Assembly (NCBI RefSeq): GCF_018863395.1
Contig: NZ_JAHKRR010000004.1
Location: 124,001-188,000, forward strand
DNA: 64,000 nucleotides
Direction of reading: 5' to 3'
From: Sinomicrobium weinanense
GTDB taxonomy: Bacteria; Bacteroidota; Bacteroidia; Flavobacteriales; Flavobacteriaceae
The notes below the pieces were generated by a model, which saw only the letters and a program-made list of their open reading frames with translations, searched no databases and had not been told where the DNA came from. Positions 16,923 to 38,466 of this stretch are shown piece by piece. Numbering within the stretch: the first letter of the stretch is position 1; each line of letters opens with the position of its first letter. The translations under genes were made by a program, and so were the position numbers.

Positions 16923-18143
16923 ATGAAGCGACGCCATTTTGTGAAAAAAGGGACTCTTATTTCCCTTTCTGCCTTATTGGGTACAGACATTGTATTCGGT
17001 ACTACCTTACCCGAAGGATATGAACTTCTGGGGCTGCAAGACCCTGACCCTTTTAAGATGTTTGAAAAGGACAGGGAAATGGAAGTACTGAACGATAAAC
17101 CCTGGAACATAGAATCGAAAGCGCACTTAATTGACGATGCTGTTACGCCTAATAAGTATATGTTTGTCCGTAACAATGGGATTATCCCGGAAAATATCGA
17201 TGAAGAGACGTGGTCGGTTAGTTTTGACGGGGAGTCCGTAGTGAACGCAAAAACCTATACGCTCCGGGAATTAAAATCAAAGTTCAGGCATTATACCTAC
17301 CAGTTAGTACTGGAATGCGGAGGAAACGGCCGTAATGAATTTGACCCTCCGGCCAAAGGAAATCAATGGAAGGTAGGCGCAGTATCGTGCGCAAGGTGGA
17401 CAGGCGTCCGTATGAAAGACATCCTTGAAGATGTAGGTGTTAAAGACAATGCCGTTTATATCGGCTATCATTCGGCAGACACCCATTTAAGCGGGGATCC
17501 GGACAAAGAACCCATTTCCCGCGGAATGCCCATACAAAAGGCTTACCAGGAAGAAACCCTGCTGGCCTTTAAAATGAACGGAGAAGATATTCCCCTGGTA
17601 CATGGTTTTCCGTTACGGCTGATAGCAGGGGGGTGGCCCGCTTCCGTTTCGGGAAAATGGATCCGGAGGATAAGTATCCGCGACAAGGTACACGACGGGG
17701 CAAAAATGACGGGGGATGCCTACCGGGTACCCTGCAGGCCTGTGGAGCCTGGAGCTAAAGTAAGGGAGGAAGATATGTGTATCATAGAATCCATGCCGGT
17801 GAAGTCATTGATCACTTACCCGAGATCGGGAGCCATCCTGGAACAGGGAAGGCCATTACAGATCCGGGGACATGCCTGGGCCGGGGAACTTGAGGTCGTT
17901 GACATGGAATATTCCATTGATTTCGGGGCCACATGGAAAAAGGCAAAGCTCCAAAAACCCGTCAATCGTTTGGCATGGCAACAGTTTTCTGCAAGTATTG
18001 ATTTTCCCAAAACCGGATATTACGAAGTGTGGGCAAAAGCTACGGATGCTCTCGGGCAGAGCCAGCCTATGGTCGTACCGGGGTGGAACCCAAAAGGATA
18101 CCTGAACAATGCCTGTCATCGCATCGCTGTAAAAATTGTCTGA
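16923..18143 (+). CDS. Sulfite oxidase family molybdoenzyme (SorA-like)
   Basis: This 406-residue protein starts with a twin-arginine signal (MKRRHFVKKG plus a hydrophobic stretch), so it is exported folded to the periplasm. The molybdopterin domain (about 60-270) contains LVLECGGNGRNEF with the molybdenum-ligand Cys132, and VSCARWTGVRMKDIL. The C-terminal part (about 290-406) is the dimerisation domain of sulfite oxidases, with MEYSIDFGATWKKA. It probably oxidises sulfite, or a related substrate, to sulfate and passes electrons to the monohaem cytochrome encoded 114 bases downstream, as in SorAB systems. Molybdenum-cofactor synthesis genes are not in the window. Confidence 0.9.
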   Translation: MKRRHFVKKGTLISLSALLGTDIVFGTTLPEGYELLGLQDPDPFKMFEKDREMEVLNDKPWNIESKAHLIDDAVTPNKYMFVRNNGIIPENIDEETWSVSFDGESVVNAKTYTLRELKSKFRHYTYQLVLECGGNGRNEFDPPAKGNQWKVGAVSCARWTGVRMKDILEDVGVKDNAVYIGYHSADTHLSGDPDKEPISRGMPIQKAYQEETLLAFKMNGEDIPLVHGFPLRLIAGGWPASVSGKWIRRISIRDKVHDGAKMTGDAYRVPCRPVEPGAKVREEDMCIIESMPVKSLITYPRSGAILEQGRPLQIRGHAWAGELEVVDMEYSIDFGATWKKAKLQKPVNRLAWQQFSASIDFPKTGYYEVWAKATDALGQSQPMVVPGWNPKGYLNNACHRIAVKIV

Positions 18144-18257
18144 TGAAATGCCTATTAACAAAATTTTCAAACCAATCGAAAAATGCTCTTCGGATATTCC
18201 ATCCCGACATTGGTCGGACAGGGGTACTGACCTATGAAAAATGAATAAAAAGAACAG

Positions 18258-18743
18258 ATGAATAAGCAGGATAAGTTCAGAGAAGAGGTAAAGAAGGTCA
18301 GAAGGCTCGTATGCATTGTGTTTGTCAGTATGATGAGTGTGGCCGGTGTTTTGGTTTATGTTATGATAGATCCGGAACTTTCCTTTTTCAGGGTATTCAT
18401 ACCCCGGGAAAAGGTTTATGAGACGAATGCTACTGTTCAGGAAGATGATTACGATAAGATAGAAAACGGTATTCATGTGCGTACCGGCCTTGTCGAGGCT
18501 GAGGGCCTTATGACGGTGGTTAATAACTGTACCAACTGCCATTCCGCCAAACTGATCACTCAAAACAGGATGACCAAAGAACGATGGGTTACAACCATTC
18601 GATGGATGCAGGAAACCCAAAACCTTTGGGATCTCGGGGCGAATGAAGACATCATAATAGATTACCTGGTTCAAAACTACCCGCCCCGGAAAAAGGGGCG
18701 TCGCCAGGGGCTTGGCAATATTAATTGGTATAAGCTCAAATAA
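18258..18743 (+). CDS. Membrane-anchored monohaem cytochrome c (SorB-like)
   Basis: The 161-residue protein has an uncleaved-looking N-terminal membrane segment (about 18-38) and a periplasmic domain with a single haem c site, CTNCH at 91-95. Met105 or Met118 could be the distal ligand. The family resemblance and position directly after the sulfite oxidase indicate the electron acceptor subunit, passing electrons towards the respiratory chain. The N-terminal anchor differs from the soluble SorB of proteobacteria. The gene is the last on the plus strand before the convergent 18.8-24.5 kb cluster. Confidence 0.88.
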   Translation: MNKQDKFREEVKKVRRLVCIVFVSMMSVAGVLVYVMIDPELSFFRVFIPREKVYETNATVQEDDYDKIENGIHVRTGLVEAEGLMTVVNNCTNCHSAKLITQNRMTKERWVTTIRWMQETQNLWDLGANEDIIIDYLVQNYPPRKKGRRQGLGNINWYKLK

Positions 18744-18787: not shown

Positions 18788-19105
18788 TTATAATTCCGGC
18801 CAGGTCAAATGGTTGTGAAGCCGGGTGCCGTTTTTTATTTCAATAATATCATTACCCATACCCATAAGCCGGAACACATAGGTTTGTTTGCCCAATGTTT
18901 TATCTTTATGACGGAAACAAGCAAAATCTCCACGGTTAAAATTCACCAGGTTGGAGACTGCGATTATCGAATTTACTCTTAGATTGGGTTCGTTTCCCGT
19001 TGTGGGGATCGTATAAATTCTTAAAATACCTGTTTGCCCGATGAAGTAACCGGTTAAAAAAACGATTCCCGCAAATAGTAGTATGATGAGTATTACTTTT
19101 TTCAA
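18788..19105 (-). CDS. Signal peptidase I-like (S26) protein lacking the catalytic dyad
   Basis: The 105-residue protein has one N-terminal membrane helix (about 3-24) followed by IPTTGNEPNLRVNSII, which aligns with the signal peptidase motif of the type PTGSMEPT but has Gly in place of the nucleophile Ser. The strand usually holding the general-base Lys reads YVFRLMGMGNDIIEIKNG, with Phe in its place. The protein then stops, well short of normal S26 enzymes. It is probably a degenerate or non-catalytic relative. It lies 90 bases after the aldo/keto reductase and may be the last gene of the NRPS-oxoamine synthase transcript. The family call is moderately secure, the lack of activity less so. 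Confidence 0.6.
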   Translation of the reverse strand: MKKVILIILLFAGIVFLTGYFIGQTGILRIYTIPTTGNEPNLRVNSIIAVSNLVNFNRGDFACFRHKDKTLGKQTYVFRLMGMGNDIIEIKNGTRLHNHLTWPEL

Positions 19106-19195
19106 ACTAGGCTGTTCATTTGTAGTTTATTGGCTCTGGATCCGAATAATACCGTCGTCTGTGGATCGGTCAGTTTTTACCAGAAACAAAGGGGT

Positions 19196-20215
19196 CTATT
19201 TTAAAACCGTTTCGATCTCTTCCAGTTCGGCAGCTGTAAAATCCAGGTTGTCCAGTGCCGCAACATTGTCTCTCAATTGTGTTGCTTTGCTTACACCGAT
19301 CAACACGCTGGTTACACGCTTATCTTTCAATAACCAGGCAATGGCCATCTGTGCCAGGGACTGGTCCCGGCGTTGCGCCATGGCATTCAGTTTTGTCACC
19401 CTGGCTATGACCTCATCTGTAATCTGGCCGGCCTGTAAATACCTGCCGTCTTTTTTTGCCCGGGAATCTTCCGGAATACCCTTTAGATATTTATCCGTTA
19501 AAATCCCCTGCCCCAAAGGAGAAAAAACAATAGACCCTACACCTGCTGTTTCCAGGGTATCTAACAGCCCGTCCTTTTCCACCCACCGGTCGAGCATATT
19601 GTACCTTGGCTGATGGATCAGGAAAGGGGTACCCAGCTCCTTCAGTATCGCGGCGGCCCTGGCCGTATCTTCCGCATTGTATTGGGAAACCCCTACATAC
19701 AGTGCTTTCCCCTGGCGCACCAGTTGGTCCAAAGCACCCATGGTTTCTTCCAGGGGCGTTTCGGGATCGGGACGGTGGTGGTAGAAAATATCCACATAAT
19801 CCAGTCCCATTCGCTTTAAACTCTGGTCACAGCTTGCTATGAGGTATTTCCTGGAACCGAAATTGCCATAAGGCCCCGGCCACATATCCCAGCCTGCTTT
19901 ACTGGAGATTAAAAGTTCATCCCTGTAAGGCGCAAAATCCTTTTTAAAAATGCGCCCGAAGTTCGTTTCGGCAGCGCCATAGGGCGGGCCATAATTGTTG
20001 GCCAGGTCGAAATGGCAAATCCCCAGGTCGAAAGCTGTTCTTAAAATGGTCCGGGCTTTCGTAAGATCGTTGACATCGCCGAAGTTATGCCATAGCCCCA
20101 GGGAAAGCAACGGCAACCGAATACCACTTTGCCCGCATCGGCGGTATTGCATCGTATCGTAACGTTTTTCACTGGCAGTATAAAGAGGTAAAGATTGGGT
20201 GTCGTTTATATGCAT
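19196..20215 (-). CDS. Aldo/keto reductase, YghZ-like
   Basis: The 339-residue NADPH-dependent reductase has the AKR catalytic set: Asp and Tyr in HFDLANNYGPPYG, Lys in LLISSKAGWD and His in IFYHHRPDPETPL. The start MHINDTQSLPLY at 20215 is preferred to the in-frame ATG six codons upstream. The closest named relatives are YghZ-type enzymes, which reduce L-glyceraldehyde 3-phosphate and other small carbonyls and are usually stand-alone. Here it follows the NRPS-oxoamine synthase and the EthD-like lipoprotein on the same strand with a 75-base gap. It could reduce the predicted aminoketone to an amino alcohol; that link is inference. Confidence 0.88.
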   Translation of the reverse strand: MHINDTQSLPLYTASEKRYDTMQYRRCGQSGIRLPLLSLGLWHNFGDVNDLTKARTILRTAFDLGICHFDLANNYGPPYGAAETNFGRIFKKDFAPYRDELLISSKAGWDMWPGPYGNFGSRKYLIASCDQSLKRMGLDYVDIFYHHRPDPETPLEETMGALDQLVRQGKALYVGVSQYNAEDTARAAAILKELGTPFLIHQPRYNMLDRWVEKDGLLDTLETAGVGSIVFSPLGQGILTDKYLKGIPEDSRAKKDGRYLQAGQITDEVIARVTKLNAMAQRRDQSLAQMAIAWLLKDKRVTSVLIGVSKATQLRDNVAALDNLDFTAAELEEIETVLK

Positions 20216-20290
20216 CGTGTATATTTTTATCAAAAATTAATGTTTTTTCATTAGACAGGATTTTCAAACATATGCTTTTCAGGAGGGCTC

Positions 20291-20725
20291 TTATTTTATA
20301 TGATTGGACTTCCATTGTTTGATTTCGCTTATTTGTATTATCGGCTGAATATTTGTGTATTTCGGTATATCGTTGCGAACGGTATCAATATTTTGGGCAA
20401 TCACTCTATTGTATTCATCAACATCGTTGATGTAAAAATAACCCATAGCTACAAAACTCACTTTATCACTATCTGTCCTGCCTGCTATCCCCTTGTCAAT
20501 TTCATAAAACTTTAAATTATCACCTAAAAGTCCGGCCATCATAGGCATATGCTTCTTTTCGTAATAATTCATGTCAAATGTTTTGTTCTCTCCGTTTGGA
20601 TATAGAATGGCTACTTTATATGTTCCGATTTCCGGGTTGGCCGAATGTTTGACTTCATTCGTTCCACAGCCTATTAAAACCGTAAAAGATAAGATGAGCA
20701 GGAGGAATTTAATTTTTGTTTTCAT
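20291..20725 (-). CDS. EthD-like lipoprotein
   Basis: This 144-residue protein has a lipoprotein signal (MKTKIKFLLLILSF, lipobox LIGC) and one EthD-type domain of the dimeric alpha/beta barrel superfamily: YKVAILYPNGENKTFDMNYY, then KKHMPMMAGLLGDNLKFYEI. EthD-like proteins are known from ether-degradation operons but have no settled catalytic role. A lipid-anchored form is unusual in combination with an NRPS. It lies 86 bases after the NRPS-oxoamine synthase and before the reductase, so it might bind or modify the product outside the cytoplasm; this is speculative. Confidence 0.8.
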   Translation of the reverse strand: MKTKIKFLLLILSFTVLIGCGTNEVKHSANPEIGTYKVAILYPNGENKTFDMNYYEKKHMPMMAGLLGDNLKFYEIDKGIAGRTDSDKVSFVAMGYFYINDVDEYNRVIAQNIDTVRNDIPKYTNIQPIIQISEIKQWKSNHIK

Positions 20726-20811
20726 AATGAATCTGGTTTTGATTGTTGGTGTATGAATATATATAATTAACGAGAGTTATAAAAAAAGTGGCTGCTCATT
20801 ACTTCATCCGG

Positions 20812-23800
20812 TTAAGAGCATTTTTCCACAACAGCTTGTTGTTTTTCAACGATTCGGGCAATGAGCCAGATAAATGGCTCTACCTGACCGTTTAACACGC
20901 AAGTACCCTTGCTGATGCAATGAAGCAACTCCTGAACGTTTGATGTAAGCAAAGCAGAGGCCGCCCGGTTATTTTTAAGAAACAGGGTACACATGGGAAG
21001 ATCAGGTATCTCTTCTGTACCTGGTGTAACATCCCGTTCATTGATTACTATGGTCATCGGCTTTTCACGATCGGGAATACGGATGGCGACGACAAGGTTC
21101 GGAGTCTGGTGAGGGGCTTTTTCAGCTATCGGTCCTTTCAGGTAATCAGTGAAGTCATTCATCCACTTCTCCATGTTAGACTGCATAATAGCCAGCTCTC
21201 TTGAGTCATCGGTTTGAGAACCTGCTAAATGCTCACCCCCATCGACTTCACGTTCTGCTGCGATAAGAGCATCGAGCGTCCTGTCGACATCTTCCTGCGT
21301 ATGAGCAGATGAGCATATAAGCCTGAGACGACCTCTTCCGCTTTCCACAATAGGATAGGTAACCGCTGATGTTTGAACACCGCGTTTGTACATGCCCTGC
21401 ACTATGGCATATAACTTATCCTTATCACTAAAATGCGGCGTAATGATAGGACCGTCCCCCGTACCCAGGTCATAACCTGCTTCGATGAATCGCCGGCGCA
21501 TGTATCGGGTTGTATCCCAAAGTCGCTCCCGCAGCTTGTCGTCTGAACGTAACCGGCGCAAAGCGGTAAGTGCTGCAGCCATATCTGCAGGACTAACGGA
21601 AGCCTGAAAAATATAGGCTCTTGAAGATGATTTCAAAAGATCTATATGCTCCTCCCGGGCAGCAACCACACCTCCAAGACTACCAAGCGCTTTACTGAGT
21701 GTGGTCATTAAGAAATCGACCTCTTCAGTGATACCCTGAGCAGCGCAAATACCTGCTCCACGTTCCCCGTAAAAACCGAATGAATGGGCCTCGTCTACCA
21801 GCACAAGCGCATCATATGCTTTTGCGGTGCGCACAATTTCCGCCACCGGTGCGGCGCCCTCCCCCATACTGTAAACACCTTCAAGAACGACCAGTACAGT
21901 ACGGTAAGGGGATACTTCCGACTCAAGAACTGCTTCCAGGTCGGAAGAGCTGTTGTGTTGAAATGTTCTGATCCTAGCCCCGCACAGACGGGCACCGTCA
22001 ACGATGGATGCGTGGCAGAGCTGGTCAATAACGACTACATCATTTTTACCCAGAAGTCCCGCCACAGCGCCAACATTGGCAGTATAGCCCGTAGGGAATA
22101 GGCAGGCGCCGGGCTTTCCTACCAGCTCGGCAAACTCTTTTTCGAACTGTAAATGGAGATCTGTCATCCCGGAAGCAGCTGCGGATGTCCCCATTCCGCT
22201 CCCGAATTGTTGCAGGGCTTTAGAGGCTTCTTCGATCACTTCTTTATCCCGGTTCAAACCAAGGTACAGGTTGGTCGTCCATATAATGGCTTCCTGTTCT
22301 TCATCATGGTACGCATCGGTTACAGTACCTTTGGTAGCGCTTCCTGTACGGAGTACCTTACTGTACGGATTTCTATCGAGGCTGTTCACCATACGCAGCA
22401 CTTCCTGAACAAGTTTACTCTTGTCATCAGCGGACCAGGAAGATGCTTTTGCAGCCTGAAACGTGGGGTGGCTGGACCGGATACGTTCCTGAAAAGTCCT
22501 AAGCGTGTCCGAGGCTACTGTACATGTATGCCCCCCTGGTGCATTACCTGTGCCACTGTCCGTCAGTTCCAGAATATGATGGGTAAGGGCTATAGGGCTG
22601 GAATACTCCATGGCAACGGTTCCGGAAAGCCTTAGCCCAAATATTTTTGAAAGCCGGACACTTAATTCCAGGCTGGACAGTGAGTCAAGCCCCAGGCTAT
22701 CGAATGAATCGTCCGGCAGTATTTGTATGGAATCATTAAGATTCAGAAGAGCGAAAACCTCTTTCTGAATTACCGACAGTATGGCTGCCGGCCGGCCGGT
22801 GCCGTGACCTTCCAGGTTTTGTGCCTGTCCGTTCGTATGGAGTTCGGGCCCGGGGTTTACATCAGTCGCCTGTTGCTCCTGTTCGGACTGACCGGGCCCT
22901 TTCAGGTACTTTAGCTTATTACGGTCGAGCTTTCCGTTGGGTAAAAGAGGCAGTTCCTTAAGGGGAATTACGACTTGAGGAACCATATACTTTGGCAATC
23001 TTTGCGCTAAATATGCCTTTGCGTTCTCACCTGTTACAGATTCATGCGGACTCACTACATATGCTACAAGCATTTTCTGTCCTATACCACCATCTACGGC
23101 TGCTGCCGCTGCGGTGGTTATCCCTGGCATGGATTCCAGTGCAGCTTCAATCTCTTCTAATTCGATCCGGAAGCCCCTGACCTTGACCTGTTGGTCTACG
23201 CGTCCTAAAAATTCGATTTCTCCGTTTTCATTCCTTCGGCAAAGATCACCTGTTCTGTACAGCCGCACCTCAGGGATCGCGCTGGTAGGTTTCATCTTTA
23301 TAAATCGCTCTGTGGTACGCACTTCGTCATACAAGTACCCACGCGCGAGCTTATTTCCCGCCAAAAACAGTTCGCCCTCAATACCATCGGAAACCGGGTT
23401 CATATCATCGTCAAGTATATAGGAACGGGAGTTTGCCACAGATTTTCCGATAGTAATGTTTTGCGTGTCGTTAAAGATCTCGACCGCCGTCGAGAAGACA
23501 GTATCTTCGGTAGGGCCATATGCGTTGACCACCCGGGTCCCTGTTTCCAGAGCAAAAAGTTTTTCTACCAGCGGTTGCTTAAGCGCTTCACTACCAAAAA
23601 CGATACAGCGGATGCCATGAGGTACCCATCCCGAAGACAGTAATGCCTGTATCGCAGATGGAACTACAACGCAACTCTTTACAAGATTCGCTGAAGATAA
23701 GGTTGGTAAGTCGAGCATGTTTTTTGCCAGGATTACTGTTCCTCCCAGTGATAAAGTTCCCAGGATTTCCATGACTGAGGGGTCAAAACAGACCGAGGTC

Positions 23801-24465
23801 GCGGCCAACATTCCCTCCAGGTCTTTATCATCCAGTAAATGGCTCATAGCCTGAGTCATCGCAACCACATTTCGATGCTCGATAGCGACCCCTTTTGGTA
23901 GTCCTGTGGAGCCGGAGGTATAGATAACATAAGCGAGATCGTTCGCAGACGGCCCGGCTAATTTGTCTGCTGTTTGTTGCTTCACCTTATTAAGCCATAT
24001 CAGCTCGCGTACTCCTTTACAAAGTTCCGCACAGTTCTCATCGTCCACAATGGCAGCTATCGCCCTGGAATGCTCCAGCATGTAGCGTACCCGTTCCTGT
24101 GGATAAGCGGGATCGAGTGGTACATAGGCACAGCCTGCCCGTAATACACCCAGCAAAGTCGCAACCAGTTCCCAGCTGCGGCTCATACACACGCCGACCA
24201 GGGATCCCTGTGGGACGCCACGGGTCACAAGCTCTCCCGCGACTGCATTCGCCCGGTCCATCAGATGCCTGAAGTTTATCGTAATCTTTCCATCAATAAT
24301 CGCCGCCCGCTCCGGATGCACCTGCGCTTTCTGTGCGATCAGCCCGCAGATTGTTTCCGTTGGGGTATAGTGCTGTTGTTCGCTTGGCAATCCTTCCGTC
24401 CGCATTTGCGTTTGTGTATTTTGTCGATCGCTGCTGCCGGTATTTTCATTACATTTTTTTTCCAT
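20812..24465 (-). CDS. NRPS adenylation-carrier-oxoamine synthase fusion with SCP2-like tail
   Basis: Four parts are visible in 1217 residues. (1) Adenylation domain, about 35-520: [32 protein letters not shown] and [11 protein letters not shown]. The Asp in FDPSV corresponds to the residue that holds the alpha-amine of amino-acid substrates. (2) Carrier domain, about 560-630, with the phosphopantetheine Ser in [11 protein letters not shown]. (3) Alpha-oxoamine synthase (PLP, BioF/KBL-like), about 690-1075, with [13 protein letters not shown] and the PLP Lys in [11 protein letters not shown] near 923. (4) A C-terminal region, about 1090-1217, resembling a sterol-carrier-protein-2 fold. There is no condensation or thioesterase domain, so release would occur by decarboxylative condensation of the carrier-bound acyl group with a second amino acid, giving an alpha-aminoketone. 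The product is unknown and no phosphopantetheinyl transferase lies in the window. Confidence 0.92.
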
Positions 24466-24668
24466 CAGTAGGTATAAGTCTTTAAAAAACGGGGTTAACT
24501 TACTTTATATATTTTTCCTTTTGTGTCGTAAATGCAAGGTAGTTAATTTTTTCTACCCTGTGCTAAAAGGTTGTTCTGGGCTCGTTTATATTTTCCGGTA
24601 CAAACTTTTCCACCAGGCTGATGAGGTATTTTCAATCAGCAAGTATTCAAAAAATTATCGGTGGGATG

Positions 24669-24705
24669 AAAAAAACAAAACCCCACTTGTAAAGGTGAGG
24701 TTTTG
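24669..24705 (-). terminator. Terminator of the TonB-dependent receptor gene
   Basis: CAAAACCCCAC (24676-24686) pairs with GTGAGGTTTTG (24695-24705), with one mismatch, around an eight-base loop; on the minus strand it is followed by seven T. The rest of the gap to 24466 shows no clear signal. Confidence 0.75.
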
Positions 24706-24729
24706 TATTGTTGTTTATAGACGGGATAT

Positions 24730-33242: not shown

Positions 33243-33632
33243 TGGCAGAAATCCGCATTTGAGAATGCTTTTAAGAAACTTTAACGCAAAGTGGGGGAAA
33301 ACAATATTTTTTGTTAAGGAACTTTGTCTACTTCGCAATGAAAATCAATACGCGTTAAAGGGTTGATAACCCTTGTGAACGCTTGTATTCCAGGAGTTGA
33401 GACTACGAAAACGTTGTAGTGTGTTCCCGGATGTTCATTTTTTGTGTACGTACTCATTTTTGAGGTGAGGACTGCTCCACAAAAATAAGATAAATGCGGA
33501 AAAGTCTATCGGGTTATACTTTTATTTCTATATAATTTTCTGTGTCTCTTTGTCCCTGTTTTGCGGTTCTCTGTGGTAAATAAAGCCCATGCCACGGAAA
33601 AATACAAAGTGCAATGCTATACAGGTTTTTTT

Positions 33633-33640
33633 TACCTTTG
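33633..33640 (+). promoter_or_regulatory. -7 promoter element of bioF
   Basis: TACCTTTG matches TAnnTTTG and ends six bases before the ATG at 33647, predicting a transcript that starts at or just before the start codon. This supports the 33647 start. Confidence 0.6.
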
Positions 33641-33646
33641 GTCTCT

Positions 33647-34801
33647 ATGGATTTTCCGGAAAAATTAGAAGCCAGACTGCGCGACAGGGAAGATAAGAAT
33701 GCATTGCGGCAACTGCCCGGCAAGGTAATGTATACCGATTTTTCTTCGAATGACTATCTGGGGCTGGCAAGGTCTGCAAAAGTATATCGTCAAACGGAGC
33801 GTATTTTGAAGGAAGGGGGCATCGTGCAGAACGGAGCCACAGGCTCGCGGTTGCTGACAGGAGATCATTCCCTTTATTCAGGGGCAGAAGAGATGCTGGC
33901 CCGGTTTCACAAGGCAGGAGCGGCACTGGTGTTCAACTCGGGCTATGATGCGAATACCGGTTTCTTTTCGAGTGTTCCGCAACGGGGAGATATAGTGCTG
34001 TATGACGAACTGATACACGCCAGTATCCGGGATGGGATACAAACGGGAAATGCCTCAGCTTACAAATTCAGGCACAATGACCCGGAAGACCTGGAGAAAA
34101 AACTTTTAAGAGGGTATGAGAAAGTCAAAGGAAAATATGGGGGAGAGTTCTATGTCGTTACGGAATCTGTTTTTTCCATGGATGGCGATTCTCCCGATCT
34201 TGAGACGATCGTTGTGCTGGCTGAAAAATATAAGGCCCGCCTGGTGGTAGACGAGGCTCATGCTGTTGGTGTTTTTGGCCGGGCAGGAGAGGGCCTGGTG
34301 CAGGAACTGGGACTGCAGGACAGGATGTTTGCGAGGGTCATTACCTTCGGCAAAGCCATGGGATGTCACGGAGCGGCCGTACTAGGGCCGCAAAGGCTTA
34401 AGGATTATCTGGTGAACTTTGCCCGAAGCCTTATCTACACTACCGCTCTTCCTCCGCATTCGCTGGCCACGATGCTGGCGGCCTACCGGGAACTTTCGGG
34501 TATGTCTTTCAGGAGCGCTCTTCAGGAAAATATCGCCTTTTTCAAATCCGAACTGAAAACACAGCGCCTGGATTCCTGTTTTGTGGAAAGCGGTTCTGCC
34601 ATACACTGCTGCATCATTCCGGGTAATGAAAACGTCAGAGGAATAGCGGGGAAACTCCGGGACAACGGTTTTGATGTAAAGGCTATACTGTCTCCCACAG
34701 TCCCCCGCGGACAGGAGCGGTTGCGTTTTTGCCTGCACAGCTATAATACAAAGAAAGAGATCTCGGAGGTTTTGAAGCTGTTGGCTACATTTGTGGAGTG
34801 A
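33647..34801 (+). CDS. bioF: 8-amino-7-oxononanoate synthase
   Basis: This 384-residue PLP enzyme joins pimeloyl thioester and L-alanine to give 8-amino-7-oxononanoate, the first committed biotin step. Motifs include FSSNDYLGLARS, GATGSRLLTGDHSLY, VVDEAHAVGVFG and the PLP Lys236 in TFGKAMGCHG. The start at 33647 is chosen over an in-frame ATG 33 bases upstream because the promoter word TACCTTTG lies between them. It is followed by bioD after 94 bases. It belongs to the same enzyme family as the oxoamine synthase part of the NRPS fusion at 20.8-24.5 kb but is a separate stand-alone enzyme. Confidence 0.95.
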   Translation: MDFPEKLEARLRDREDKNALRQLPGKVMYTDFSSNDYLGLARSAKVYRQTERILKEGGIVQNGATGSRLLTGDHSLYSGAEEMLARFHKAGAALVFNSGYDANTGFFSSVPQRGDIVLYDELIHASIRDGIQTGNASAYKFRHNDPEDLEKKLLRGYEKVKGKYGGEFYVVTESVFSMDGDSPDLETIVVLAEKYKARLVVDEAHAVGVFGRAGEGLVQELGLQDRMFARVITFGKAMGCHGAAVLGPQRLKDYLVNFARSLIYTTALPPHSLATMLAAYRELSGMSFRSALQENIAFFKSELKTQRLDSCFVESGSAIHCCIIPGNENVRGIAGKLRDNGFDVKAILSPTVPRGQERLRFCLHSYNTKKEISEVLKLLATFVE

Positions 34802-34895
34802 TTTGGAAGTTTGAACTTGCCCGGGAGTTTCAGGATCCCATCCCGATAGGCCCGATCCTGCTATAATGATCTTTAAAGAGAATTTTATCAATACC

Positions 34896-35519
34896 ATGAA
34901 AAAGAAATTTTTTATCACCGGCATTTCCACCGAAGTGGGTAAGACCATAGCTTCTGCCATAGTTACGGAGGCCCTGCAGGCCGATTACTGGAAACCGATA
35001 CAATCGGGAGACCTGGACAATTCGGATTCTCATAAGATAAAACGCCTGCTTTCCAGTACAAAAACGAAGATACATGCCAATAGCTATGCATTGAAAACCC
35101 CGATGAGCCCCCATGCCGCAGCGGCTATTGACGGTGTGAAGATAGAAGCGGACAAAGCGGTGGAGCCCGAAACCCCCAATCACCTGGTCATTGAAGGAGC
35201 GGGAGGGGTACTGGTGCCCCTGAATGCCCGGGAGACCATTGCAGACCTGATAAAACCGGACCACAGGGTGTTGATCGTATCACGGCATTATCTGGGGAGC
35301 ATTAACCATACCCTCCTCACCATAGAAGCATTGAAGCGCAGAAACCTGAATATTGCCGGGATCATTGTCAGTGGAGACGAAAATCCGGCGACAGAAAGCG
35401 TAATAGAGCAGATGGGCGGGGTGCCCATAATAGGGAGAATAGCCGAAGAAAAAATGTTCGACCGGGAGGTCGTAAAAAGATATGCGGAGATATTTGCCCC
35501 GATATTGCAGAGGCTCTAG
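34896..35519 (+). CDS. bioD: Dethiobiotin synthetase
   Basis: This 207-residue ATP-dependent enzyme forms the ureido ring of dethiobiotin from 7,8-diaminopelargonate and bicarbonate. The P-loop FITGISTEVGKT is at the N-terminus, and YWKPIQSGD and VIEGAGGVLVPL are family motifs. The start MKKKFF at 34896 is preferred to an ATG ten codons upstream because the P-loop strand then begins at once. It lies downstream of bioF; bioA follows only after an opposite-strand glycosyltransferase. Confidence 0.95.
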   Translation: MKKKFFITGISTEVGKTIASAIVTEALQADYWKPIQSGDLDNSDSHKIKRLLSSTKTKIHANSYALKTPMSPHAAAAIDGVKIEADKAVEPETPNHLVIEGAGGVLVPLNARETIADLIKPDHRVLIVSRHYLGSINHTLLTIEALKRRNLNIAGIIVSGDENPATESVIEQMGGVPIIGRIAEEKMFDREVVKRYAEIFAPILQRL

Positions 35520-35548
35520 GGGGGGATCCTGATAGTCTGTTCATCAAC

Positions 35549-35615
35549 CTGAACTTGTTTCAGGGCCCCATCCCGACCGTCTGATCAATATGATGGGATG
35601 CTGAAACAAGTTCAG
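35549..35615. repeat. Dispersed repeat with CTGAACTTGTTTCAG inverted ends
   Basis: CTGAACTTGTTTCAG (35549-35563) and its exact reverse complement (35601-35615) flank GGGCCCCATCCCGA and GATGGGATG. A related copy lies at 45796-45897 and a decayed one near 34810-34860. Placed between convergent genes, it may also act as a two-way terminator. Confidence 0.75.
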
Positions 35616-35634
35616 CATGACGTAAAGACGGCCT

Positions 35635-37134
35635 CTAGTAAATCCGGCTGTATATCTCGGCTTCTCCTATTCTTTTGATAAAACGATATTGCGTGGCCAG
35701 TATGTTCTTAAAGTATATATTGTCCGGAGAGTCGTCTTTCATAAAAGGTATTTTCCCCTTTTCCGTAACAATGATCTGCGGATTGATCACGGAACAGATA
35801 TACCGTATTTCTTCCACACTGTTTTTCCGGGGATTGTCATAAAAGGGGTAGAGTTGTTCCCGGTCCAGGTTGGAAGGATGGGTTACCGACTTTGTGGGCG
35901 GATCTTCGTTAGTAAGCCAGTATCCGATGTGGTTTTCCAGGAAAAAGACCGATTGCACATTGCCAAAGTGTGTGTTGATATATTTAGGAACCTCGATACC
36001 TTCGCCATTGTAGAGGGATTTTCCATCCAAAGCCCGGTCACCGAGAAAACAGTATTCTCTTATGGGTTCGAACTGAATGAGTAACAACACCACGGCGACA
36101 AAAGGGGTATAGGCTACTTTCAGGGGCCATTTTATATGGCTTACAATGATGGCCAGCGGCAATATCAGGTAGGGGTAAAGCTGAATGAGGTAATGGCTGT
36201 TCATCTCACCCGATTGTATAAAAGAAAACATGGTTCCTGCAAGTGCAAGTAAAATATAGGTGTAGTTCCTGCACCGTTTCGGGAAACACCTTTTTCTGCT
36301 GTTGAGAAAGATCAGGACAGCAGCGATGCCGATAAAGGGCAGCAGATCCACAAAGGCATCGATATTATTGGCCGGGTCCGGAGTGTCGTAATGTAGTGGT
36401 GCCAGTATAACCGATTCCCACCAGACCCATAAAAGGCCGTCTATGTAATAAGGGATGATGGTGAGGAGCACCGGGACCAGAATCCCCGTTCCGTATAAAA
36501 ATCCTTTTTGTATTGAAGTGTAAATACCTTTTTCCCGGTATTCGAAGAACATAAGGCCAAGTCCTATAAAGAGAATGGGATAAGCCAGGTTGAGTTTTGT
36601 CATGGCAGCAATGCCAAAAAGGGCCCCGGCCAGAAAAATATGCCATTTTCGGGAAGCCTTGATCAGGAACCAGAATGCAGGGACGGCGAATAGCATGGAA
36701 AGGTGCTCTGTCATCACGCCCTGCACATTGCCGAACAAGCTGGACAAAAAGATATAGAGCATTCCGCACCAGAACCCTACGGCCCGTTTTCCGGACAAAC
36801 GGTCGCCGATCCTGAACATGTACAGCGATGTAACAGCGATGCCAATAGTACCTGCAAGCCGGATGGCGATAAAACTCTTACCGAAAATTTTAATGATGGC
36901 AGCAAAGAAAAAGAAAGCGAGCGGAGGTTTGAGGTCCCAGAGAGCGGTATATGGCAGGTGCCCTTCCGCCCAGGACTGCCCCATGAGGATAAATGTACTT
37001 TCGTCCCGGTCTATATAGTCCCGGAAAAAGAAAGGGAAGCGGATAAACAGGGCTACTCCCAGAAAGATCAGGAAGATCTGATAGTACTTTAGGGGGGAAT
37101 AATTAATGTTAAACCCCTGTTTTAATAGGTTCAA
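35635..37134 (-). CDS. GT39-like (ArnT/PMT type) glycosyltransferase
   Basis: The 499-residue membrane protein has about ten hydrophobic segments. The first periplasmic loop carries FRDYIDRDESTFILMGQ, with the acidic pair typical of GT-C enzymes that use lipid-linked sugars, followed by LPYTALWDLKPPLAFF. It probably transfers a sugar from a polyprenyl phosphate to a lipid or protein on the periplasmic side; donor and acceptor are unknown. The start codon appears to be TTG, since no ATG or GTG precedes the first helix in frame. It sits in opposite orientation between bioD and bioA. Confidence 0.85.
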   Translation of the reverse strand: MNLLKQGFNINYSPLKYYQIFLIFLGVALFIRFPFFFRDYIDRDESTFILMGQSWAEGHLPYTALWDLKPPLAFFFFAAIIKIFGKSFIAIRLAGTIGIAVTSLYMFRIGDRLSGKRAVGFWCGMLYIFLSSLFGNVQGVMTEHLSMLFAVPAFWFLIKASRKWHIFLAGALFGIAAMTKLNLAYPILFIGLGLMFFEYREKGIYTSIQKGFLYGTGILVPVLLTIIPYYIDGLLWVWWESVILAPLHYDTPDPANNIDAFVDLLPFIGIAAVLIFLNSRKRCFPKRCRNYTYILLALAGTMFSFIQSGEMNSHYLIQLYPYLILPLAIIVSHIKWPLKVAYTPFVAVVLLLIQFEPIREYCFLGDRALDGKSLYNGEGIEVPKYINTHFGNVQSVFFLENHIGYWLTNEDPPTKSVTHPSNLDREQLYPFYDNPRKNSVEEIRYICSVINPQIIVTEKGKIPFMKDDSPDNIYFKNILATQYRFIKRIGEAEIYSRIY

Positions 37135-37194
37135 TGTTAGTCAGGTTTAGCTACAATTCTCATCTTTGCAAGATACTATAAATAACGACCTGTG

Positions 37195-38466
37195 ATGAAA
37201 AATATTTCGGACCGTGATAAAAAACATATCTGGCATCCTTTAACCCAGCATAAGTTACACCCCGATGCCATTGCCATTACCCGGGCAAAAGGGGCGGTAT
37301 TGTACGATGAAGAAAATAAGGAATATATAGATGGGATAGCCTCGTGGTATACATGTATGTATGGGCACTGTAATGATCATATCATCCGGAAGGCCCATGC
37401 CCAGATGCAGCGGCTGGACCATGTGGTGTTCAGCGGGTTTACTCACGATGTGGCCGTGGAGCTTTCGGAAGCGCTTATGGAGATACTGCCCCAAAATCAG
37501 CAAAAACTGTTTTTCTCCGACAACGGTTCTACCGCTTCGGATGTGGCTATAAAAATGGCGCTGCAATACCACTTTAACCGGGGAAAGAAAAAAAATATAC
37601 TGGTTGCTTTTGAAGAAGGTTTCCACGGTGATACCTTCGGGGCGATGTCTGTTTCCGGGTTGTCGGTATACAACGGCCCGTTCGAGGATTTTTTCCTTAC
37701 TGTGGAACGTATACCCGTGCCCACCGGGGAAAATAATGAAGAAGTGCTGGAAAAACTCCGGCGAATAATAAGTGAGGATAACGTAGCCGGATTTATTTAC
37801 GAACCGCTGGTACAGGGGGCGGCTGCGATGAAAATGCACGACAGGGAGGGCCTTAATGCACTGATCGGGCTTTGTAAGGAAAACGATGTTATTACCATAG
37901 CCGATGAGGTGATGACCGGTTTCGGGAAGACCGGTAAGAACTTTGCTTCGGAATACATGGATAACCAGCCGGATATTATCAGTATGTCCAAAGCATTGAC
38001 CGCCGGTATGCTGCCCATGGCCATAACGAGCTGTACCCGGAAGGTATACGATGCCTTTTACAGCGATGATATATCGAAAGGACTGTTTCACGGGCATACC
38101 TATTCGGCCACTCCCTTAGCCTGTTCGGTTGCCCTGGCAGGGATTGAACTTCTGCGGTCGGAAGAAATGCAGCAAAATTTACAGCGGGTCATGGAATCGC
38201 ACCGGGAATTTGACAAAAGGGTCCGGAATCATCATAAAGTAGCTGCTACCCGTCAGCTCGGGGTCATCTACGCTCTCGATCTTAATATACAGATGGAACG
38301 TTACGGAAACCTCCGGGACAAGCTGTTCCGTTTCTTTATGGACAACGGTGTGTTCCTGCGGCCGTTGGGTAATACGATCTATATTCTCCCGCCTTATGTG
38401 GTTACCGGTGAACAACTGCAAAAAATATACGACAGTATTGAACGGGCATTGGATGAGGTAGTGTAG
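37195..38466 (+). CDS. bioA: Adenosylmethionine-8-amino-7-oxononanoate aminotransferase
   Basis: This 423-residue PLP aminotransferase makes 7,8-diaminopelargonate from the BioF product, normally with S-adenosylmethionine as amino donor. Motifs: HIWHPLTQH at the N-terminus, ASWYTCMYGHCN, FSDNGSTASDVAIKMA, FEEGFHGDT, IADEVMTGFGKTG and the PLP Lys266 in SMSKALTAG. A GTG precedes the chosen ATG at 37195 by one codon. A SET-domain gene follows after 137 bases and then a ketoacyl synthase, all on the plus strand. Confidence 0.95.
   Translation: MKNISDRDKKHIWHPLTQHKLHPDAIAITRAKGAVLYDEENKEYIDGIASWYTCMYGHCNDHIIRKAHAQMQRLDHVVFSGFTHDVAVELSEALMEILPQNQQKLFFSDNGSTASDVAIKMALQYHFNRGKKKNILVAFEEGFHGDTFGAMSVSGLSVYNGPFEDFFLTVERIPVPTGENNEEVLEKLRRIISEDNVAGFIYEPLVQGAAAMKMHDREGLNALIGLCKENDVITIADEVMTGFGKTGKNFASEYMDNQPDIISMSKALTAGMLPMAITSCTRKVYDAFYSDDISKGLFHGHTYSATPLACSVALAGIELLRSEEMQQNLQRVMESHREFDKRVRNHHKVAATRQLGVIYALDLNIQMERYGNLRDKLFRFFMDNGVFLRPLGNTIYILPPYVVTGEQLQKIYDSIERALDEVV

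Follow-up and report, generated by a model that had tools for sequence, protein, structure and literature searches.

What does a protein make that joins an amino-acid adenylation (A) domain, a carrier (T) domain and an alpha-oxoamine synthase (AOS) domain in one chain, and does it need the genes around it to do so? This question is raised by a gene on the minus strand of a 64,000-nucleotide stretch of Sinomicrobium weinanense DNA (contig NZ_JAHKRR010000004.1, positions 124,001 to 188,000; the window). An earlier note on this DNA had predicted a decarboxylative condensation that releases an alpha-aminoketone, and had read an EthD-like lipoprotein gene and an aldo/keto reductase (AKR) gene downstream as tailoring functions. 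We propose that the gene encodes a self-contained synthase that would join two amino acids into an aminoketone, a reading to which we give a probability of roughly 0.55, with substrates and product predicted from domain content. The gene and its parts are as follows.

20812..24465, minus strand: A-T-AOS-tail fusion protein of 1217 aa, one open reading frame (ORF) of 1217 codons
22930..24333, minus strand: adenylation domain of the amino-acid type, residues 45-512, with A3 motif, Asp228 and Lys512 intact
22573..22734, minus strand: carrier domain, residues 578-631, with the GLDSL serine Ser595, from Pfam and the alignment of orthologues
21244..22302, minus strand: AOS domain, residues ~722-1074, with Lys925, His818, Asp891, His894 and Arg1048, from Pfam, NCBIfam and an alignment with serine palmitoyltransferase (SPT)
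20815..21183, minus strand: C-terminal tail domain, residues ~1095-1217, predicted SCP2-like fold, from a structural model only

Pfam places AMP-binding at residues 45-378, AMP-binding_C at 438-512, PP-binding at 578-631 and Aminotran_1_2 (PF00155) at 727-1067. At E<=0.001, Pfam matched neither a condensation nor a thioesterase domain in the synthase, and the canonical organization of a nonribosomal peptide synthetase (NRPS), a condensation domain plus release by a thioesterase or reductase, was not found at that threshold. The A domain scores 378.5 bits against TIGR01733, the family of amino-acid adenylation domains, where the cut-off is 317.4. The chain described in the earlier note, with A, carrier and AOS domains and no condensation or thioesterase domain, is thus borne out. 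We then compared 16 full-length orthologues, a set that includes the window protein. Asp228, Lys512, Ser595, His818, Asp891, His894, Lys925 and Arg1048 are invariant in all 16, as is the A3 motif save for its variable seventh position. We take Asp228 and Lys512 to occupy the positions of D235 and K517 in GrsA numbering; an acidic residue at the first of these binds the alpha-amino group of the substrate. The catalytic residues of the AOS domain align with those of SPT, and the closest solved structures to this part of the protein are SPTs; we assigned residue roles (including those of SPT His137 and Arg366) from the SPT template in the available part of PMC3870968. The synthase accordingly has what marks the A-CP-PLP2 proteins: AMP-binding, PP-binding and PF00155, in this order, in a single chain, and the His, Asp, His and Lys of the pyridoxal phosphate (PLP) site together with the substrate Arg, in 16 of 16 members. 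An inactive carrier or PLP site, which the earlier note had named as grounds for dropping its idea, is not what we see. Purifying selection acts on the synthase, with dN/dS of 0.10-0.21 in four pairs. We conclude that the layout of A, carrier and AOS domains is sound, far beyond chance.

The family of the AOS domain is less sharply defined. Its NCBIfam scores are about equal for SPT (318.2 bits, cut-off 500), glycine C-acetyltransferase (317.1, cut-off 460) and BioF (316.2, cut-off 426.45), all below cut-off, and two further SPT models give 304 (cut-off 640) and 255.8 (cut-off 670). These near-equal scores would fit a domain that merely duplicates the housekeeping work of AOS enzymes in biotin synthesis or threonine breakdown, in a fusion that has decayed or idles. 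That explanation is already disfavoured and we give it very little weight: the active sites are intact, dN/dS is low, and the window has, apart from the fusion, a bioF-like gene that shares one stretch with bioD and bioA at 33614-38466. The bioF-like product (334 bits, cut-off 426) is a stand-alone AOS relative of the AOS domain in the fusion. We therefore rejected a role for the synthase in biotin synthesis, given this separate gene set.

How might the self-contained synthase work? With ATP, the A domain would activate an alpha-amino acid that is neutral and hydrophobic, and would then load it onto the phosphopantetheine arm of the T domain. In the AOS domain, PLP would form a quinonoid with a second, small amino acid, for which alanine or serine is favoured over glycine. 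The quinonoid would attack the aminoacyl thioester with loss of CO2, so that a 1,3-diamino-2-ketone is freed without a thioesterase. Such a diamino-ketone would be prone to cyclise to a dihydropyrazine or pyrazine, and the tail may bind the hydrophobic product, open or cyclised. We infer loading and condensation because the chemistry of both families is established and because there is a precedent in Caulobacter, where separate proteins act in the same sequence: an AMP-forming enzyme first, then a dedicated carrier, then an AOS enzyme, SPT (PMC9386255). The decarboxylative chemistry of the earlier note accounts for the domains most economically, and the sites it requires are intact; its substrates and product are predictions, and to name pyrazines or amino alcohols as products is speculation.

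The choice of substrate for the A domain comes from a Stachelhaus-type code read via motif anchors, in which we took the fourth letter from residue 268, although its true place may be residue 267 or 266. The window protein has V at all of 266-268, whereas some distant members have I or M at 266-267. The pocket reads D-P-M-V-V-G-A-V-F-K in five orthologues and D-T-(M/L/F)-V-(V/I)-G-(A/F)-V-(Y/F)-K in the other 11, so that all 16 have a similar pocket made up of the acidic Asp228 and otherwise non-polar residues. This pocket suggests a neutral hydrophobic amino acid and no more than that. In the AOS domain, the fusion family has TSAAASG or a close variant, a run of small residues, where two SPT alignments have GSRFLNG and GSRMLNG. 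We take this loop to lie near the acyl group in aminolevulinate synthase (ALAS), and because of that presumed position a roomier acyl pocket, with alanine or serine rather than glycine as co-substrate, is plausible. Ser761 sits at what we take to be the position of Thr83 of ALAS.

The tail had been overlooked in the earlier note. Pfam matches nothing in the C-terminal 145 residues and no SCP2 family in any of the 16 members, and a 16-row profile of the tail gave 0 matches in the PDB up to E 10. We modelled residues 1080-1217 with AlphaFold2 from an input of three sequences (pLDDT 71) and searched the PDB with the model using Foldseek. The first 18 of 209 matches were all UbiJ-SCP2 or sterol carrier protein 2 chains, eight of them at E<=0.001 (best E 6.9e-5), with TM scores of 0.34-0.59 and rmsd of ~8-12 Å on this model of pLDDT 71. 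Twelve residues of the tail are the same in all 16 members. A model of the AOS domain plus tail reached a pLDDT of 44 and was discarded. From the tail model we propose a candidate SCP2-like fold, with moderate confidence. At the very C-terminus, the L031, L061, L062, L063 and L066 members share a short EAI(A/V) or EVIV ending, perhaps a docking or sorting motif.

A predicted lipid-binding fold next to an SPT-like domain invites another explanation, in which the A domain loads a fatty acid, the AOS domain condenses it with serine or cysteate, and the tail holds the lipid, as in the synthesis of sphingolipids or capnine-like lipids. The resemblance of the tail model to a lipid-binding fold, the SPTs as nearest solved relatives of the AOS part, and an order of activities that, as far as the available description goes, is the same as in the Caulobacter proteins would all suit it. 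However, the A domain passes the amino-acid cut-off (378.5 against 317.4), it keeps Asp228, the acidic residue that binds an alpha-amino group, and the SPT models score far under their cut-offs (318.2/500, 304/640, 255.8/670). We consider lipid synthesis unlikely.

We examined where the gene for the synthase occurs. Within the genus Sinomicrobium, four of six genomes carry it. Samples of the family, class and phylum gave 5 of 397 genomes (two of them from Sinomicrobium), 1 of 395 and 1 of 395, the sole carrier in the last two being the window's own genome; in these scans two candidates per genome were scored in the matches listed, and misses are possible. The genus of Chitinophaga japonensis gave 1 of 79, with up to eight candidates per genome scored and misses again possible. 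In a second, low-GC genus, 10 of 11 genomes carry the gene. A contig scan with six short peptide patterns had returned nine loci, of which L009 and L010 hold full-length orthologues and the other seven partial matches.

The flanks of the 16 orthologue loci, 5-10 kb on either side, were compared next. Because a blastp search of the synthase against all ORFs of these loci gave no second match at E<=1e-3 except the window bioF, no second adenylation or AOS gene was seen within the flanks at that threshold. Neighbours were annotated in part: 10 proteins of L010 and 7 of L059 (both counts including the synthase), 10 of L009, and, in the second genus, 10 of L029 and L031 and 10 of L029 and L030. Among these partly annotated neighbours, no conserved biosynthetic partner besides EthD and AKR was seen across the synthase's different sites. 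Eight of the 10 copies in the second genus lie behind the same pcm-like gene (with one opposite ORF intervening at L063), five of these eight loci hold an smpB-family gene on the opposite side, and the other two copies adjoin a helicase gene. The genes that recur there (pcm, smpB, OmpW, DeoC-like, phosphorylase-like and others) have the look of a fixed chromosomal setting and were not seen at the sites read in Sinomicrobium and Chitinophaga. L030 and L031, from two genomes of the second genus, share a site: their synthases are 63% identical, three neighbours are 91-97% identical and three others 46%, 75% and 88%, which would fit either fast evolution of the synthase or its replacement in place. 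In the tree of the synthase, the eight pcm-site copies are split from the other eight rows by one split (support 100/99), and the two helicase-site copies and G810 group with the Sinomicrobium side. We conclude that the synthase stands largely alone in the genomes examined, at several unrelated sites.

A lone gene could still be one module of a larger nonribosomal pathway, with its T domain receiving from, or its aminoketone passing to, NRPSs encoded elsewhere. The window's own genome has several adenylation-type matches in long open frames at 11-35 kb of contig C4, a stretch that is likely a multi-module NRPS cluster, and carriers in the second genus have 28-68 first-look candidates each where the four Sinomicrobium carriers have 14-20, a rough hint of many NRPS genes. 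Yet the synthase itself shows no condensation domain, the flanks of the 16 loci show no NRPS adenylation gene in the blastp search, and the Chitinophaga copy shares with the window no flanking DNA past a short 5' element. We think a larger assembly line improbable.

That Chitinophaga copy bears on how the gene may have moved. Its DNA is 87% identical to the window's over ~3.7 kb, and the similarity stops near the edges of the gene, apart from the following element.

24466..24551, minus strand: 5' element common to the Sinomicrobium and Chitinophaga copies, a candidate promoter and leader, from DNA comparison

Rfam assigned this element to no family at gathering score; the only Rfam match in the window is a tRNA. 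The dS between the window and Chitinophaga copies is 0.365, and that between the window and three members of its genus is 0.290, 0.430 and 1.657. The tree places the Chitinophaga copy in one clade with the Sinomicrobium copies (five rows, 100/100) and, with weaker support, nests it among them (four rows, 81/95). Because the similarity ends at the edges of the gene, we favour horizontal transfer of the synthase gene, and transfer of this single gene would be the simplest account of the Chitinophaga copy. The earlier note had missed both the lone distribution and this apparent transfer. Carriage by plasmids was considered and rejected: of 360 plasmid records that matched at E<=1e-60, none covered 80% of the query in a single place.

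We then turned to the two supposed tailoring genes.

20291..20725, minus strand: EthD-family (TIGR02118) protein with a lipoprotein-like signal, from NCBIfam
19196..20233, minus strand: AKR of the L-glyceraldehyde-3-phosphate reductase type, from NCBIfam

Both family assignments of the earlier note hold, with 62.2 bits against TIGR02118 (cut-off 30.5) and 489.2 against NF007388 (cut-off 448), and the N-terminus of the EthD protein contains LIGC, which we take for a lipobox-like motif. Synthase, EthD and AKR share the minus strand; 86 bp separate the first two genes, and 57 bp the second two if the AKR starts at its TTG. The note had read these three genes as an operon that makes and then reduces an aminoketone, and the shared strand, the short gaps and the presence of both genes beside the synthase in genome G395 are in its favour. 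In G395, however, the genes run AKR-EthD-synthase and are 325 and 1190 bp apart, and because order and gaps differ a conserved operon is unlikely. The AKR gene occurs in five of six genus genomes, including G398, where the synthase gave no match, and lies in one common chromosomal neighbourhood in G396, G397 and G398; by tblastn of the flanks it is absent from 14 of the 16 orthologue loci. It is probably a resident gene outside the system, and we rejected it as a dedicated tailoring enzyme. EthD occurs in three of six genus genomes, all of them synthase carriers, each time within ~1.2 kb of the synthase and in varying order; it gave no match in the carrier G396 and is absent by tblastn from 13 of the 16 loci. 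We downgraded EthD from a core part to, at most, an accessory in one lineage. The neighbourhood survey that the earlier note had called for thus finds EthD near the synthase in three of the four genus carriers and otherwise a lone synthase with no conserved set. That the three genes form one pathway seems to us quite unlikely. In G397 (S. pectinilyticum), a second, broken EthD copy lies upstream of the synthase (L009:7785-8292), so that EthD flanks the synthase on both sides.

The remaining surroundings of the gene in the window offered further candidates, none of which we kept. One more feature lies between the synthase gene and the TonB receptor gene upstream.

24675..24706, minus strand: terminator-like hairpin with a T run, from a consensus scan

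The scan found 5 sites where shuffles of the region gave a mean of 7.4, and the hairpin is therefore weak on its own. We rejected a link to the TonB receptor, given the intervening terminator-like site and the fact that two of four sister genomes (G395 and G397) carry a relative, 55-57% identical, elsewhere. At 16923-18743 on the plus strand, a SorA-like molybdopterin sulfite dehydrogenase gene is followed by a SorB-like cytochrome gene, both below equivalog cut-offs; a link to these was also rejected, four sister genomes having given no match to SorA at E<=1e-60 (a search run without a positive control). A short ORF at 18788-19105 on the minus strand resembles signal peptidase I (PF10502, 30 bits). 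By eye, the region of its serine motif reads TGNEP, where the usual signal peptidase motif is SMEP, and it is probably an inactive fragment. The earlier note, by starting at 18788, had taken in this truncated ORF, which has no shown link to the synthase.

Some of our observations weigh against a self-contained synthase. Substrate and product are predicted from domains; with the SPT, glycine C-acetyltransferase and BioF cut-offs all missed, the co-substrate of the AOS domain is not readable from family membership, and its apparent preference for alanine or serine hangs on a single residue, Ser761. The tail is without a sequence-level match, its model is shallow (pLDDT 71, three sequences), and its best folds reach a TM score of ~0.5 at an rmsd of 9-10 Å. 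A lone gene may still depend on unlinked partners. We nevertheless advance, as a tentative extension, a one-gene pathway that would be transferable as a single gene since the synthase would act alone: the A-T-AOS-SCP2-like protein would make a diamino-ketone, this would cyclise to a pyrazine-type molecule for signalling or defence, and the protein's own tail would hold it, with no dedicated partner. Because 10 of 11 genomes of the low-GC genus carry the gene and it appears to have crossed between families, its product is likely to be of some ecological use. An AOS enzyme ordinarily takes its acyl group from acyl-CoA or an acyl carrier; if our reading is true, this one would accept an aminoacyl thioester and link two amino acids through a C-C bond within a single protein, a useful chemistry, and the gene is small enough for direct testing.

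How does such a synthase compare with known systems? SxtA, PigH and CqsA are AOS enzymes of special metabolism, and SxtA and PigH carry carrier domains in-chain; to our knowledge, none of the three has an amino-acid adenylation domain in the same chain. Microscilla belongs to Bacteroidota, as does the window organism. Two A-CP-PLP2 proteins of the Aminotran_1_2 group, A1ZVW4 of Microscilla marina and A3ZWL3 of Blastopirellula marina, were listed in 2013 (Table 2 of PMC3870968), and the available part of that paper gives no cluster type or product for either; another member of the group, an AMP-binding protein from Synechococcus, is modelled in the paper. Compared by layout rather than sequence, these proteins resemble the synthase in their A-carrier-AOS order, PLP residues and short assembly. 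Their layout is Pfam-based in the part available, so a tail could not show there, and Pfam misses the tail here too. The AasR-AcpR-SPT set of Caulobacter and other Rhodobacteria likewise feeds an AOS enzyme from a carrier in place of acyl-CoA, but, as far as the available text describes it, consists of three separate proteins with a fatty-acid substrate and a sphingolipid product (PMC9386255). ATRed of Xenorhabdus indica is, as the proposed synthase may be, a minimal NRPS behind a pyrazine, but in the available account it releases an aldehyde by a reductase, whereas decarboxylative condensation is proposed here (PMC7586950). The earlier note had matched its gene set to no characterised pathway, and among the matches listed in the open-access literature (subscription papers lay outside this search) we likewise found no characterised A-T-AOS protein; the layout itself, however, was already on record. 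It has been known since 2013 without a product, and the window adds to it a putatively SCP2-like tail and a lone, apparently transferred gene; if our reading is true, aminoketone synthesis would be the first function for this layout.

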